DNA from: Oscillospiraceae bacterium
GTDB taxonomy: Bacteria > Bacillota > Clostridia > Oscillospirales > Oscillospiraceae
Direction: 5' to 3'
DNA length: 34,436 nucleotides
Assembly: GCA_031261635.1 (NCBI GenBank)
Contig: JAISJH010000031.1
Location: forward strand, 1-34,436
Made by a program: the position numbers and the translations under genes
Part shown: one piece after another, positions 12,269 to 34,102 of the stretch
Layout of the letters: each line of letters starts with the position of its first letter
Position numbering within the stretch: the stretch's first letter is position 1
The notes under the pieces: generated by a model
Told to the model about the DNA's origin: nothing
The model's database searches: none
The model's input: only the letters and a program-made list of their open reading frames with translations

Positions 12269-13285
12269 ATGCAAAAAACACCTGTTGAAATCAGCGATTT
12301 TGCGCGTAGCAACAATCGGACAAGCGCTTGTCATTTCACTGCTATTATTGTAACCGTTTTGTTTCTGTTGGCTTTCGTTTCGCTCTCCGCTAACGCGGCT
12401 AACGAAGCGGGCGGAGTGGTCAAATCCACCGACGTAAACGTCAGAGCCGGGGCTAACACCGACAGCGCGGTGCTTACCTCCCTTAAAAAGGGCGATAACG
12501 TCGTAATCGTCAAATGGGCTAACGACAGCTGGTACGAAGTCATAATCTCCGGCGGGACGCGCGGCTTTGTACTCGCGAAATATATTACTCCGCTTGATTC
12601 CGTAACCTTCGCGGTCGGGACGGGGGAGCTTGAGGCGGAGGACGTATCCTTCCGCGCGGGTCATTCGACCGACAGCGAGCGTATCTCCCTGCTAAAACTC
12701 GGGACGCAGTTTGAAGTCACGGGAACCTGGGCTGAATGGTACAGCGTAAAATACAACGGTAAAGAGGGCTATGTACACTCCGACTACGTGCGTATCCTCA
12801 AAACCGCCGCCGCTAAGGCCGCTGAAACCACCTCGGCAAAGACCACCACGGTTGTAAAAGAGCTTACCGCGAGCTACACAAACAGCGCGACCGCCGTTAA
12901 ATATTCCTCTAACACGAACATAGCCGGCGTTGAGGAACTCGCAATGTCGCTCCTGGGGACAAAATACGTCTACGCGGGAGCGAGTACAAAGGGTTTCGAC
13001 TGCTCGGGCTTTACATATTACCTCGCTAAGAGCGTCGGAGTAGACCTCCCGCACGGCGCTACAGGACAATACAAATACGGCGAAAAAGTCGCCAAAACAG
13101 AGCTAATGCCGGGCGACTTCGTATTCTTCTCCTCTGCTGAAACCAAGGGAATAGCCCACGTGGGAATGTACCTCGGCGACGGCGTGTTTATCCACTCCTC
13201 CAGCGCGGCGAAAAAGGTTAAACTAAATAACCTCTCCGACCAATACTACGAGCAGCACTGGTACGGAGCGAGACGCATACTTTGA
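12269..13285 (+). CDS. Secreted SH3b-SH3b-NlpC/P60 cell-wall endopeptidase
   Basis: A 338-residue exported peptidoglycan hydrolase. The N-terminus has a long cytosolic stretch, then a hydrophobic signal/anchor (about 23-43, TAIIVTVLFLLAFVSLSANA). Two bacterial SH3 domains follow (about 48-108 and 118-178), each with the VNVRAGANTDS / VSFRAGHSTDS signature. A Ser/Thr/Ala-rich linker (about 180-215) leads to a C-terminal NlpC/P60 domain. Catalytic Cys245 is in FDCSGFTYYLAKSVGVDLPH and His297 in GIAHVGMYLGDGVFIHSS. It probably cleaves stem-peptide gamma-D-Glu bonds. The ATG at 12269 sits below GGGGGG (12259-12264); an upstream TTG is less likely. Its TGA stop is followed immediately by the next repeat end. 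Confidence 0.93.
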   Translation: MQKTPVEISDFARSNNRTSACHFTAIIVTVLFLLAFVSLSANAANEAGGVVKSTDVNVRAGANTDSAVLTSLKKGDNVVIVKWANDSWYEVIISGGTRGFVLAKYITPLDSVTFAVGTGELEAEDVSFRAGHSTDSERISLLKLGTQFEVTGTWAEWYSVKYNGKEGYVHSDYVRILKTAAAKAAETTSAKTTTVVKELTASYTNSATAVKYSSNTNIAGVEELAMSLLGTKYVYAGASTKGFDCSGFTYYLAKSVGVDLPHGATGQYKYGEKVAKTELMPGDFVFFSSAETKGIAHVGMYLGDGVFIHSSSAAKKVKLNNLSDQYYEQHWYGARRIL

Positions 13286-13622
13286 CAGTTAACAGTTAGC
13301 AAATATCAAATATCAGAGACGGGGGTTTGGACGTTGATTGCGTCCAAACCCCCGTCCGTCCCCCGTCCCGGCGCAGTGCGCCGTCTTTGCGAAGCACCGG
13401 TAAGCCCGCGATACGTACAATGTTACAGGTGCGAAGCAATCCAGTGCCGGGGGGACAACATACGTATGTTACGCTCCCGGCACTGGATTGCCGCGCGCCT
13501 AAACGTCCTACGTATCGCAAGTGCGGCGGCGCTCGCAATGACGGGGCAGGGGCAAGCCCCGCCCCCGCGCCCCCCGTCCAAACCCCCGTCTCTGATATTT
13601 GATATTTGATAACTGTTAACTG
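13286..13622. repeat. Framed repeat composite between NlpC/P60 and nifH
   Basis: The left end (13286-13321) abuts the NlpC/P60 stop; the right end (13587-13622) closes 11 bp before the nifH -35. Inside are a linker, GTCCAAACC, a CGGCGCAGTGCGCCG hairpin, module D copy 5 (about 13379-13545, symmetric subtype with CCAGTGCCG in both arms), an E hairpin, and a mirrored linker. No gene. Confidence 0.88.
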
Positions 13623-13633
13623 AACATTCCCTA

Positions 13634-14628: not shown

Positions 14629-15849
14629 ATGAAAATTGCAATTGCTACTACGGACGGCCTGGTTGTCAATCAGCATTTTGGGCATACTCCTGAATTTGCT
14701 ATAGTTGAAGCGGAGGGAAAACACTGGGAGTTTACCGAGCGCCGCGCTAATCCGGCGGCTTGCGCGGGCGGGCAGCACGACCACTCGCGCTTTGACGAGA
14801 GCATTGATGTTATCGCCGATTGCGAAGCGCTGTTCGTTAGCAAAATAGGCGACTACGGGCGCGGACAGCTTGAACGTCGGCACATCGCCGTTATGGAAAT
14901 CAGCGGCCTGATTGACGAACTGTTACCCAAGTACCTTACATACCTGCAAAAGCCTAAACGCGCCTTTGTCCCAAAGCCAAAAGCGGCTCAAAAGCGCGAC
15001 CTGTCTAAAGACCACCCCTGCTTTGCCGAGGGCAAGCCGGGGACTAAGGGGCGCGTTCACCTCCCCGTTTCGCAGGCCTGCAATATCCAGTGCCGCTTTT
15101 GTATCCGCAGTCAGAACGTCGATGAAAACCGCCCCGGCGTCGCGAACGGTATTCTGCCGCTTGATAACGTCGCCGCGACTGTTGACAAGGCGCTCGAGCT
15201 TTGCCCGGAGATAACTGTCGTAGGGATAGCGGGGCCGGGCGATTCGCTCGCCTCCCCCCACGCGCTTGAAGCGTTTCGTCTGCTGGAGGAAAAGCACCCG
15301 GAGCTTATAAAATGCCTCAGCACAAACGGGCTAGCCCTGCCGGATAACGTGCAAAACCTGCGCGAAGCCGGGGTCGAAGCCCTGACCGTTACAGTTAACG
15401 CCGTTGACCCCGTTATTGCTGACAAAATAGTATCGCACATCATATATAAAGGCGAGCTTCTGCGCGGCCTTGACGCTATGAAAATCCTTATAGCGAACCA
15501 ACTTGCGGGGATAAAAGCCGCCTCCGGCCTCGGCATAACCGTGAAAGTCAACACCGTGCTAATCCCCGGCGTTAACGATACCCACATAGACGCTATAGCC
15601 AAGGCCGTAGCCGAAGCGGGAGCCGCAAAGCTCAACATAATAGCCCTAATCCCGCAGCACGAGCTGTCGCATATCCCCGCCCCAACCTGCGAACAGCTAG
15701 ACCTTGCCCGCGTACAGGCGGGAAAATACCTAACCCCCTTCCGCCACTGCCAGCACTGCCGCGCCGACGCCGTAGGAGTACCGGGAACAAGCGACTTCGC
15801 AAGCGAACTATACAGCGGCCGCGCAATGGAAACATTCTCGCACGGATAA
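14629..15849 (+). CDS. nifB: NifB-like radical SAM protein with N-terminal NifX-type domain
   Basis: A 406-residue protein. Residues 1 to about 105 form a NifX/dinitrogenase-cofactor-type domain (MKIAIATTDG, NQHFGHTPEFAIVE). The rest is a NifB-type radical SAM enzyme, which builds the NifB cofactor precursor of nitrogenase. Evidence is the HPC motif (129-131), the CxxxCxxC cluster site with Cys151, Cys155 and Cys158, ENRPGVANG (166-174), VVGIAGPGDSLASP (197-210), and CQHCRADAVG with Cys374 and Cys377. In the common two-domain NifB the NifX-like domain is C-terminal; here it is N-terminal. The ATG at 14629 follows a weak AGAGGT. Sequence motifs support NifB chemistry strongly. Whether it serves nitrogen fixation or another cofactor-dependent reductase is open. 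Confidence 0.86.
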   Translation: MKIAIATTDGLVVNQHFGHTPEFAIVEAEGKHWEFTERRANPAACAGGQHDHSRFDESIDVIADCEALFVSKIGDYGRGQLERRHIAVMEISGLIDELLPKYLTYLQKPKRAFVPKPKAAQKRDLSKDHPCFAEGKPGTKGRVHLPVSQACNIQCRFCIRSQNVDENRPGVANGILPLDNVAATVDKALELCPEITVVGIAGPGDSLASPHALEAFRLLEEKHPELIKCLSTNGLALPDNVQNLREAGVEALTVTVNAVDPVIADKIVSHIIYKGELLRGLDAMKILIANQLAGIKAASGLGITVKVNTVLIPGVNDTHIDAIAKAVAEAGAAKLNIIALIPQHELSHIPAPTCEQLDLARVQAGKYLTPFRHCQHCRADAVGVPGTSDFASELYSGRAMETFSHG

Positions 15850-15851
15850 TG

Positions 15852-16564
15852 CAGTTAACAGTTATCAAATATCAAATATCAGAGACGGGGGCTTGGACGG
15901 GGGTTGCGGGGGACGTACAATATAACCGTAGGGGCGGGTTTCAAACCCGCCCTTTGGTTTCGCAATTATAAAAAAACGCACAATCCTTATAGGGGCAGGG
16001 CGAAGCCCGCCCCGTCATTGCGAAGCACCGGTAAGCCCGCGATACGTAGGGTGTTACAGGTGCGAAGCAATCCAGTGCCGGGGGAGAAACATACGTATGT
16101 TATCCTCCCGGCACTGGATTGCTTCGCGCCTATACGCCCTACGTATCGCAAGTGCGGCGGCGCTCGCAAAGACGGGCAGGGCGACGCCCTGCCCTGTCCC
16201 GGCGCACTGCGCCAGGACGGTGGACGGGGTTACGCCCGCGCACGGCGCCGGGAAACCACCCCGCCGCCTGCGGGCGGCACCCCTCCACAGAGGGGATAAG
16301 GACGTGGGTTGGACGTGGGTTGGACGTGGGTTGCGTGGACGCGAATCCCCCGCAACTCTCGTCCAAACCCCTATCCCCTCTGTGGAGGGGTGCCGCCCGC
16401 AGGCGGCGGGGTGGTTCCCCCCCGCAGGGCGCAACCCCCGTCCTGCCCTTCAATGCCCCCCTCTGTAGAGGGGGGTGCCGCCTCAGCGGCGGGGGGTGCC
16501 TCCCGCAGGACGCAACCCCCGTCCTAACTCTCGTCTCTGATATTTGATATTTGATAACTGTTAT
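15852..16564. repeat. Large framed repeat composite between nifB and the hybrid kinase
   Basis: About 710 bp without a gene. Left end 15852-15887, right end from 16532. Inside: linker, module B (about 15929-15955), a B/E hybrid (about 15989-16012), module D copy 6 (about 16012-16177, symmetric subtype), E hairpins, module C (about 16255-16296), three 11-bp tandem linkers GGACGTGGGTT (16300-16332), inverted C (about 16372-16412), a CCTCTGTAGAGG variant of C (about 16450-16495) and a mirrored linker. The right end closes 12 bp before the next -35. Confidence 0.88.
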
Positions 16565-16576
16565 TTGAAATTATCC

Positions 16577-16606
16577 TTGACAAAATATAACCAAATGTGC
16601 TATAAT
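16577..16606 (+). promoter_or_regulatory. Promoter of the hybrid sensor kinase
   Basis: TTGACA (16577-16582), 18-bp spacer and TATAAT (16601-16606) with TGC extended -10. Confidence 0.9.
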
Positions 16607-29490: not shown

Positions 29491-29946
29491 GGGCGGGTTT
29501 CAAACCCGCCCTCCCCCGCACCGCGCGGGGAAACCACCCCGCCCCTGCGGGGGCACCCCTCCACAGAGGGGATAGGGGTTTGGACGTGGGTTGCGTCCGC
29601 GCACGGCGCGGGACACCCCCCGCGCCTGCGGGCGCTTCCCCCCTCTAAAGAGGGGGGCTTTGGAAGGCTTGGACGGGGATACGCCCTGCGGGGGACGTAG
29701 GGGCGGGTTTCAAACCCGCCCTCCCCGCGCAACGCGCGGGGGTAGTGGACGGGGGTTGCGCCGCGCACGGCGCGGGGAAACCACCCCGCCCCTGCGGGGG
29801 CACCCCTCCACAGAGGGGATAGGGGTTTGGACGGGGGTTGCGTAATCCGGGCGCGGCGAGCCTCGCCCCTACACGCCACAGCGTACTCCCCCGCAAAAAT
29901 ATAACGCTCAAAACCAAGGGGGCGGGTTTGAAACCCGCCCCTACAT
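29488..29946. repeat. Unframed repeat composite after sigF
   Basis: About 460 bp without a gene and without the usual frame ends. Module B (29488-29512) supplies the sigF stop. Then come a CCGCACCGCGCGG hairpin, module C (about 29530-29572), linkers, a CCTCTAAAGAGG C-type hairpin (about 29640-29660), B (about 29698-29723), a GCGCAACGCGC hairpin, a second C (about 29776-29822) and linkers. The GCGGCGAGCCTCGCCCCTAC module (29852-29872) and an inverted B (about 29921-29944) close it. The 29947-30060 stretch looks unique but non-coding. Confidence 0.83.
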
Positions 29947-31314: not shown

Positions 31315-32111
31315 ATAACAGTTATCAAATATCAAATATCAGAGATGTTAAGACAATTGACAATGAATAATGAATAATATCGGGGGTTTTGACGTTGGTT
31401 GCGTCCGCTGCGGCGGGGAAACCACCCCGCCGCCTGCGGGCGGCACCCCTCCACAGAGGGGATAGGGTTTGGACAATTGATAATTGATAATGAATAATGA
31501 ATAATTACGGGGGTTTGGACGTAGGTTGCGGTGGGTGTACGTTCCCACGTCCAAAACCTTCGTCCTTATCCCCTCTGTGGAGGGGTGCCGCCCGCAGGCG
31601 GCGGGGTGGTGTCCCGCGCCGTGCGCGGCGTATCCCCGTCCTGCCCACGTCCCCCGTCCCGCCCACGTCCCCCGTCCTGCCCACGTCCCCCGTCCCGCCC
31701 ACGTCCCGGCGCCGTGCGCCGTCTTTGCGAGCGCCGCCGCACTTGCGATACGCAGGGCGTATAGGCGCGCGGCAATCCAGTGCCGCGAGCGTAACATACA
31801 TATGTTTTCCCCCCGGCACTGGATTGCTTCGCACCTGTAACATTGTATGTATCGCGGGCTTACCGGTGCTTCGCAATGACGGTGCGCCGTCCCGGCGCAC
31901 CCAGGGCAGGGGCGAAGCCCTGCCCTGTCCCGGCGCAATGCGCCGGGACGGTGGACGTGAGTTGCGCAATCCGGGCGAGGCGAGCCTCGCCCCTACGTCC
32001 CCGGCGCAACCAACGTCCAAATCCCCCGTCATTGTCAATTATCAATTATCAATTGTCAATTGTCAATTGACTTAACGTCTCTGATATTTGATATTTGCTA
32101 ACTGTTAACTG
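31315..32111. repeat. Large framed composite with module G, between divergent promoter and lipoprotein 3' end
   Basis: About 800 bp without a gene. Left end 31315-31346, right end 32076-32111. Just inside both ends are mirrored AT-rich G modules (about 31352-31378 and 32031-32070). Further in are module C (about 31415-31460), a second G (about 31473-31505), the linker, a GGGTGTACGTTCCC segment, inverted C (about 31565-31610), four 18-bp tandem units CCCCGTCC[T/C]GCCCACGTC (31634-31706), module D copy 12 (about 31719-31882), a GTGCGCCGTCCCGGCGCAC hairpin, E hairpins and the GCGAGGCGAGCCTCGCCCC module (31973-31995). Confidence 0.87.
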
Positions 32112-32130
32112 AACCCCCCTCGGGGGGTTC
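32111..32130 (-). terminator. Hairpin at the end of the solute-binding lipoprotein gene
   Basis: GAACCCCCC/GGGGGGTTC is a perfect 9-bp stem with a 2-base loop whose inner end touches the stop codon (32129-32131). There is no T-run after it on the minus strand, so termination is plausible but not certain. Confidence 0.45.
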
Positions 32131-34102
32131 ACGCTTGTTCGGCTATGTATATTGCGGCTCTTGACTGGATTATCGCGGTTACTTCGTCGGCTGTCTTTTG
32201 TCCCTCGAAGTAGGCTTCTACCTCGTCCTCGATTATCGCTTGCAAAGCGCTGTCCATTCCGTGGATACTGTCGATTGAAGCGAACCAGGCGGCGAATTTA
32301 TCGTATTGAGCCTGCGTCATTGGCTTGCCGCCCTGCTGCGGCTCGTTTAGCGCGTTTTCGACTTCCGCGTCGTAGCGGGACTGCATAGCCGGAAAGCCCC
32401 TGCCGCGTCCAAAATCCGTTGTGAGCGTCAGGCGCAAAAACTCCCACGCGGCGGCTTTTTCAGTACACGCCCGCGTCATTGCGAGCGTGAACGGCATAGG
32501 CATAAACACGCCGGTTTTCCTGTCCTTCCCGGGGTAGCCTTTGACCGAGAGCGTGCCGCCGAGCGCGTCGTCCGAATAAACATAGCCGGAGAATGTCGCC
32601 GTACTTAGCAGCATCGCAAGCTGCGTCCCCGACTTGATTTGTTCCGAATCATTTTTGTACTGTCCCGCACTTTTGGGCGCGGTAGCTACTAATTCAAGCA
32701 ATTTTTTGAAATCGGGCGTATCGAAAAGCGCGGTACCGCTGTCCCAGTCCACAAAATCGTAAATGCTTTGGTATAGCAGAAACGCCAGCAGGTCGGCGCG
32801 CGGCATTGCCTCGTTCAGCACGGTCGCTCCCTCCGGCGTGGCGGTTAGGTAGCCTTGCATTTCCTCAAAAGTCCAGCCCGGTTCGGTTCCTAAAAATTCG
32901 GAGCTTCCGGCAAAGGACATTACGCTGACCTTCGGCGTCAGGCGATAGAGCGCGTCCCCCGTGGATAAGGCTTTGCGAACCGACGGCACAAGCGTTATCC
33001 CCGGGTCTGCGTCAATATAGGGCGCGAGGTCCTCAAATAAATCCTTACGCGCAAAGCTTTCAAAGGGTATATTTTCCGTTATCATCAAATCGGGAATGTT
33101 CCCGGCGATAATCTCAACGTTGAGCTTTGTTATATCGCGGTAAGACTGAATTACAATTTTGTAATCCGCGCTTTCCGTATTGAAGCGCAAAACCGCGTCT
33201 GACAGTTCAGACGGTACGAAGTTTCCTTCGTAGCATACGGCGATAGTTAGCTCTGTTTTCTTGACGGCAATCGGGGCGCGTTGCAAAACGCACAAGGCTC
33301 TGTCCGCGAGGCAGAGGAGCTTGTCGCCGGGAAGCACTCCCAGCACTTGCGTTTGAGCGTCAAGCAGTGCGCCGCCGAAGCTCACGATATCGCTAGCCTG
33401 CGACGTTTCCGAGTTTATCAGAAAAATCCCTCGACTCTGGTCGTAAGCGAGCCAGTTCGCGCCGTAGGAGACTATCCCCGAGGCGTAAACATCGGGCGGC
33501 AAATCGAAAACCACCACGCCCTCCGAATTTTTGTCGAAGTCGATTTTATTGAGCGTCAGCTTGTAGCCGCCTAAGAGCCGCTCGTTTGCAAGCACAAGCG
33601 GCGTACCGCCCGGCACGGAGGTCAGGCCGTATATAATGTTGTTAATAGTAAGCTCTGCAAGCTTCGCGCCGCCGCTGTCGCAGACGTATACGGTATCACC
33701 GTTGCCGCCGAAGTAGAGCCTGCCGTCAGCGTCGCCCGCGAGGTAGCTTATGGCCTCCTCGTCGATGTATTCAACCCCCGCGAGCGTCGTGGCGCTGTAA
33801 TTCCCCGGGATAGTCTCAAAACCCGGCACAGCGAGCTTGTCCGTACCGTCGGGGTTGATACTAAACAGCGAGCCTCCCGCGATATACCAAATCTTGTCAT
33901 TAAAATAAGCGGCAGCCGATATATCCTTGCCAGCCCCATACAGCGGCCGCGCAGCCCATTCAAAGCCCTCGGCAAGCTCCAAAAGCGTATCGCCGCCGCC
34001 CGTAGGGGCGAGACTAGCCTCGCCCGGTTGCGTGGGAGGGTTATTAGCTACGCAGGAGGCAAACATCAACAAGGCAAGCGCAAAGGCAAAGAGTTTTTTC
34101 AT
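32129..34102 (-). CDS. Lipoprotein: beta-propeller-like region fused to extracellular solute-binding domain
   Basis: A 657-residue lipoprotein. The signal peptide MKKLFAFALALLMFASC ends in lipobox FASC (Cys17). Residues about 40-285 are made of short repeated strands (KIWYIAGGSLFSINPDGT, GRLYFGGNGDTVYVCDSGG, NWLAYDQSRGIFLINSET) like a beta-propeller. The rest, from LTIAVCYEGNFVPSELSDAVLRFN, is a family 1 extracellular solute-binding protein with DLMIT, DLFEDLAPYI, KAAAWEFLRLTL. It could be an ABC importer binding component for a sugar or other solute, but no permease genes are in view. The ATG at 34102 has GGGGAATTG upstream; the longer frame to 34150 lacks a signal peptide start. Residues about 25-34 (QPGEASLAPT) are encoded by a repeat module. 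Confidence 0.85.
   Translation of the reverse strand: MKKLFAFALALLMFASCVANNPPTQPGEASLAPTGGGDTLLELAEGFEWAARPLYGAGKDISAAAYFNDKIWYIAGGSLFSINPDGTDKLAVPGFETIPGNYSATTLAGVEYIDEEAISYLAGDADGRLYFGGNGDTVYVCDSGGAKLAELTINNIIYGLTSVPGGTPLVLANERLLGGYKLTLNKIDFDKNSEGVVVFDLPPDVYASGIVSYGANWLAYDQSRGIFLINSETSQASDIVSFGGALLDAQTQVLGVLPGDKLLCLADRALCVLQRAPIAVKKTELTIAVCYEGNFVPSELSDAVLRFNTESADYKIVIQSYRDITKLNVEIIAGNIPDLMITENIPFESFARKDLFEDLAPYIDADPGITLVPSVRKALSTGDALYRLTPKVSVMSFAGSSEFLGTEPGWTFEEMQGYLTATPEGATVLNEAMPRADLLAFLLYQSIYDFVDWDSGTALFDTPDFKKLLELVATAPKSAGQYKNDSEQIKSGTQLAMLLSTATFSGYVYSDDALGGTLSVKGYPGKDRKTGVFMPMPFTLAMTRACTEKAAAWEFLRLTLTTDFGRGRGFPAMQSRYDAEVENALNEPQQGGKPMTQAQYDKFAAWFASIDSIHGMDSALQAIIEDEVEAYFEGQKTADEVTAIIQSRAAIYIAEQA
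34001..34031 (-). repeat. Repeat module absorbed into the lipoprotein reading frame
   Basis: On the minus strand, GCAACCGGGCGAGGCTAGTC then TCGCCCCTACG. It differs at a few positions from the intergenic copies at 31967-31997 and 29841-29873. It is in frame and encodes Gln-Pro-Gly-Glu-Ala-Ser-Leu-Ala-Pro-Thr in the linker just after the lipid-modified cysteine. Confidence 0.82.

Follow-up and report, generated by a model that had tools for sequence, protein, structure and literature searches.

The M1 copy in the lipoprotein gene

The window, a stretch of 34,436 nucleotides, contains a predicted lipoprotein gene and three copies of a short dispersed repeat, hereafter M1:

32129..34102, minus strand, predicted lipoprotein gene of 657 aa with a signal peptide and Cys17, followed by a variable linker (coding score 389, strong)
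34001..34030, plus strand, 30-nt M1 copy (GGTTG subclass) that runs antisense to the gene; its minus strand encodes QPGEASLAPT
31967..31997, minus strand, intergenic M1 copy of the GGATTG subclass, found by pattern search
29843..29873, minus strand, third M1 copy of the window, intergenic, with one core mismatch, found by pattern search

The plus-strand sequence of 34001-34030 is CGTAGGGGCGAGACTAGCCTCGCCCGGTTG, and its reverse complement supplies the codons CAA CCG GGC GAG GCT AGT CTC GCC CCT ACG of the gene, that is, residues 25-34 (QPGEASLAPT), which start eight residues after the predicted lipid-anchor residue, Cys17. The coordinates, reading frame and residue numbers proposed in an earlier note on this DNA were confirmed, and the peptide is, as that note held, repeat DNA read in frame within the linker that follows the anchor cysteine. 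The protein has no match in Pfam (E ≤ 1) or NCBIfam (E ≤ 0.001); its N-terminal region gives weak propeller-like matches and its C-terminal region shows a weak likeness to extracellular solute-binding proteins.

It had also been claimed that the gene copy matches the module at 31967-31997. Both do belong to the same repeat family, but the closest relatives of the gene copy are other GGTTG copies elsewhere in the genome, since it is a 30-nt GGTTG unit and the copy at 31967-31997 a 31-nt GGATTG unit. Relative to the consensus, the gene copy carries two core differences, both silent (GCA to GCT and AGC to AGT), and its hairpin is weaker (-14.1 versus -16.8 kcal/mol for the consensus unit).

No close orthologue of the lipoprotein was present among the genome contigs searched. 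The nearest one, from congener G001, is 39% identical and lacks the QPGEASLAPT peptide, having an unrelated linker (ASDGSDGANSAPSGNSAEAGEVTAQPIG...). Orthologues carrying the same peptide in unrelated codons were looked for and none was found. An identity of 39% is too low for this orthologue to serve as a clean empty site for the lipoprotein copy. Moreover, the linker after the cysteine spans about 28 residues in the window lipoprotein and about 32 in the G001 orthologue; as it is no longer than that of the orthologue, replacement of part of the linker is as likely as a clean insertion.

Structure of the repeat unit

The M1 unit can be written as YGTAG-GGGCGAGGC-TY-GCCTCGCCC-GG(A)TTG. Alignment of 84 near-consensus copies gives (T/C)GTAGGGGCGAGGCT(T/C)GCCTCGCCCGG, followed by ATTG or TTG, and conservation stops on both sides, so that the unit has fixed ends. 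It is built from GTAG and a 9-bp stem closed by a TY loop of 2 nt, and falls into two subclasses, GGTTG (30 nt, or 10 codons) and GGATTG (31 nt). The hairpin GGGCGAGGC-TT/TC-GCCTCGCCC has a folding energy of -16.8 to -17.3 kcal/mol. GTAG is present in all 84 near-consensus copies, partly by construction as the seed pattern contained it. When GTA was removed from the pattern, the genome count rose only from 87 to 102, and this rise is partly due to one-mismatch copies and to palindromes matched on both strands. M1 thus shows two hallmarks of GTAG-tagged repetitive extragenic palindromes (REPs): one end of the hairpin bears an unpaired GTAG, and the palindrome is short and perfect, with a stem within the 5-13 bp range and a short loop of the frequent TY type.

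Copy number and genomic arrangement

With up to three mismatches, GTAGGGGCGAGNCTNGCCTCGCCC has three matches in the window versus none in 100 dinucleotide shuffles, and the 2.31-Mb genome (125 contigs, 89% complete) contains 87 exact matches, whereas the reversed control gives none. Neighbouring M1 copies, 25-66 bp apart, are arranged head-to-head in 20 cases, tail-to-tail in one and head-to-tail in one, after four self-overlaps were dropped. A REP-like arrangement, with many dispersed, mainly intergenic copies and mostly head-to-head dimers, is therefore also seen for M1.

The repeat census covered about 1.97 Mb of the 2.31-Mb genome, with genes called using a hexamer coding model; repeated 16-mers make up about 10% of the census sequence. 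Allowing up to three mismatches, M1 gave 129 matches, of which 21 lie within called ORFs in a genome that is 82% coding. Strict coding flanks on both sides were found for 4 of these 21. This strict in-gene count differs between M1 (4/129) and family M2 (0/574; P = 0.001), and the GC-rich families more abundant than M1 have zero in-gene copies in the census under the same strict criterion. A literature search for the DNA string of the repeat returned only unrelated papers among the 20 matches listed of 134.

Other repeats occur alongside M1. Intergenic cassettes of the window (e.g., 2439-2600, 13279-13632 and 15845-16577) contain several GC-rich modules flanked by inverted AT-rich repeats (AACAGTTATCAAATATCAAATATCAGAGACG). 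In the census, the AT-rich module M3 was found within TatD, MutL, an EcfA1-EcfA2 fusion and others. TatD (L184:14983-15745, plus strand; module VVNSYQISNIRDEL) has the same length as its counterparts in congeners and as solved homologues, suggesting that sequence was replaced, not inserted. The ATPases EcfA1 and EcfA2 share one ORF (L284:52-1795, minus strand), in which an AT-rich repeat (NNSYQISNIRDGGLDGG) joins the two parts; the repeat may have mediated a fusion of the two genes. Segments of the QLTIDNGQLTI type, derived from another AT-rich repeat, were seen in ORFs resembling dihydroorotase (L264:11235-12678, minus strand), PyrK (L178:6276-7023, plus strand) and an M42 peptidase (L209:2899-3985, minus strand), apparently in beta-hairpin positions.

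In-frame copies in other genes

Looser windows combined with inspection extended the in-gene set beyond the strict criterion. Besides the lipoprotein of the window, it comprises:

L069, FtsY (named by NCBIfam), two M1 copies in frame
L254, FtsK (named by NCBIfam), one M1 copy and one variant (M1b) copy
L249, IorA, indolepyruvate oxidoreductase (named by NCBIfam), one M1 and one variant (M1b) copy
L186, second lipoprotein (signal peptide), in-frame M1 copy just after the anchor cysteine
L288, NFACT-like gene, partial M1 copy

From sequence, we take the L186 product to be a phosphate-binding-like lipoprotein and that of L288 to be an NFACT-like protein. The copies in these five genes lie in frame (that in L288 is partial), and the genome-wide census bears out the view of the earlier note that the modules can move into genes.

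For FtsY and IorA, the comparison with congeners was by length and identity. Over the aligned span, FtsY is 18 aa longer than the 87%-identical FtsY of G001. Relative to the other congeners the excess is 15-18 aa, so that it is seen against all five, and the excess over E. coli FtsY falls around the repeat. By length comparison, IorA is 14 aa longer than its G001 counterpart, and that of G002 is longer still. Length excess as proof of insertion fails for the lipoprotein, for FtsK, where the G001 protein is longer, and for TatD, where lengths are equal.

All three frames of the antisense strand of M1 are open. The GEASLAPT frame is used by five of five validated antisense copies, compared to 3 of 13 in spurious ORFs without coding flanks (P = 0.007), the split between validated and spurious being our judgement, for which coding scores were used and, in the case of L186, the signal peptide. 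Of five core changes across the in-gene copies, four are silent, against an expected fraction of 0.29 (P = 0.03, on small numbers). In other phyla, long ORFs, called without a coding model, again show the frames of M1 seen here, as well as others. The frames of M1 seem to be filtered by what the protein tolerates.

Distribution and search for a mobilizing enzyme

None of the 60 other family genomes that were sampled, among them one congener, contains the exact 24-mer core of M1. With one mismatch allowed, the core is absent from four of five congeners and found at three sites in G001, the nearest congener, none of them on the contigs of the FtsY, IorA, FtsK or lipoprotein orthologues. Given this near-absence from relatives, the expansion of the repeat took place in this lineage, and some of the copies went into genes; on the simplest reading of polarity, it was gained here. 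The burst of these tiny palindromes is recent and lineage-specific. Outside the family, the exact 24-mer core was recorded, among the matches listed (L081-L160), in Chloroflexi, Actinomycetota, Planctomycetota, Deinococcales, Burkholderiales, Nitrospira, Geobacter and others.

A RAYT gene (Y1 transposase, PF01797) was detected in none of six genomes of the genus (this one and five congeners), with a positive E. coli control, and no reverse transcriptase (PF00078) was found in this genome. Among other genomes with the 24-mer, 9 of 16 contain a Y1 transposase, counted as presence anywhere in the genome. The RAYT association usual for REPs is thus not seen here. Di Nocera et al. (2013; PMC3733652) describe this association as common for GTAG-tagged REPs, not universal, and for that reason we treat RAYT as typical of REPs rather than defining.

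Origin of the lipoprotein copy

Very probably, a GTAG-tagged, REP-like palindrome spread in this species, and a copy of it went into the lipoprotein linker or replaced part of it, surviving there because it was tolerated. The 30-nt unit would have multiplied in the genome, and one copy would have landed in the stretch after the cysteine or overwritten part of it. Its survival is probably owed to a 10-codon unit with a stop-free frame, encoding a small, flexible Pro/Ala-rich peptide in a tolerant place. More generally, transposition into genes would be followed by loss of harmful cases. We infer both active transposition of M1 and neutrality of its in-gene copies. A broader scenario appears rather unlikely as a whole: a 24-nt palindrome identical across many phyla (as far as the matches listed go) would spread here without RAYT and be kept in genes through two broadly tolerated linker frames, one on each strand (GEASLAPT and VGARLASP), sometimes by length-neutral replacement.

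The earlier note spoke of domestication. In the full sense of the word, the module would have been recruited for a protein function, for example as a spacer holding the binding domain off the membrane. Its position shortly after the anchor cysteine in two lipoproteins (in the window and at L186), with mostly silent changes and one frame favoured, is in keeping with such a role. Relatives, however, use unrelated linkers of similar length, and the same repeat sits in the unrelated proteins FtsY, FtsK and IorA, which argues for tolerance rather than a shared role. As silent changes and a favoured frame also fit simple tolerance, a gained function is unsupported; neutral tolerance is the simpler explanation, and domestication seems improbable.

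An origin of the repeat within the lipoprotein linker, with later spread between genes, is disfavoured and very improbable: QPGEASLAPT is plausible as a linker, but many phyla, among the matches listed, share the exact 24-mer core, and the copy in the lipoprotein gene departs further from the consensus than most of the intergenic ones do, with a weaker hairpin. Equally improbable is misjoining of a repeat into the gene during assembly. Although the assembly is fragmented and the gene lies close to a contig end, the frame is intact on both sides, as judged from coding scores on both flanks, the substitutions are silent, and the same pattern, with the frame kept, recurs in several unlinked genes. 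Pro/Ala-rich linkers are common, but chance similarity or convergent codon use is refuted by the shuffled and reversed controls and by unit boundaries that agree with those of the family.

Relation to known repeats and significance

The small dispersed repeats (SDR) of Nostoc are mobile, 21-27 nt long and form a hairpin like M1, and differ from it in sequence. The closer likeness is to the GTAG-tagged REPs, intragenic copies of which are also reported by Di Nocera et al. (2013; PMC3733652). As described there, these share with M1 the unpaired GTAG end, 9-bp stem and 2-nt TY loop, a likeness of description rather than of compared consensus sequences, as well as the mostly intergenic location, predominance of head-to-head dimers and presence of some translated copies in genes. 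M1 differs from them in its clostridial host, in which RAYT was not detected in the genus genomes searched.

That paper also mentions Rickettsia elements inserted in frame. Like M1, these Rickettsia palindromic elements (RPE; Ogata et al. 2000, 2002, as cited in PMC3733652) are short palindromes found in frame in many unrelated genes. M1 correspondingly occurs in FtsY, FtsK, IorA, two lipoproteins and, partially, the NFACT-like gene, and orthologues lack it, as seen from FtsY lengths in all five congeners and from the G001 lipoprotein linker. On the other hand, RPE-4 and RPE-6 are CGTC-tagged and RPE-1 is longer according to the same source, and both sequence and host differ; the tag of M1 is GTAG. 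QMITE2 of Coxiella (PMC5896051) also holds a GTAG REP and shows in-frame ORF insertions, but is an element of 150-190 bp, unlike the 30-nt M1.

Judged from its sequence, the lipoprotein copy is a genuine GTAG-REP lying in frame within a gene. Precedents are well established in intragenic REPs and in the Rickettsia palindromic elements, and with M1 in genes this known, uncommon phenomenon gains a clear new example. One question it poses is how REPs are mobilized where RAYT is not found. It also allows the difference between copies that are tolerated in genes and those that are not to be measured by frame, family and protein site. To the Rickettsia and REP examples of new protein sequence made from repeats, it adds one from a clostridial host.
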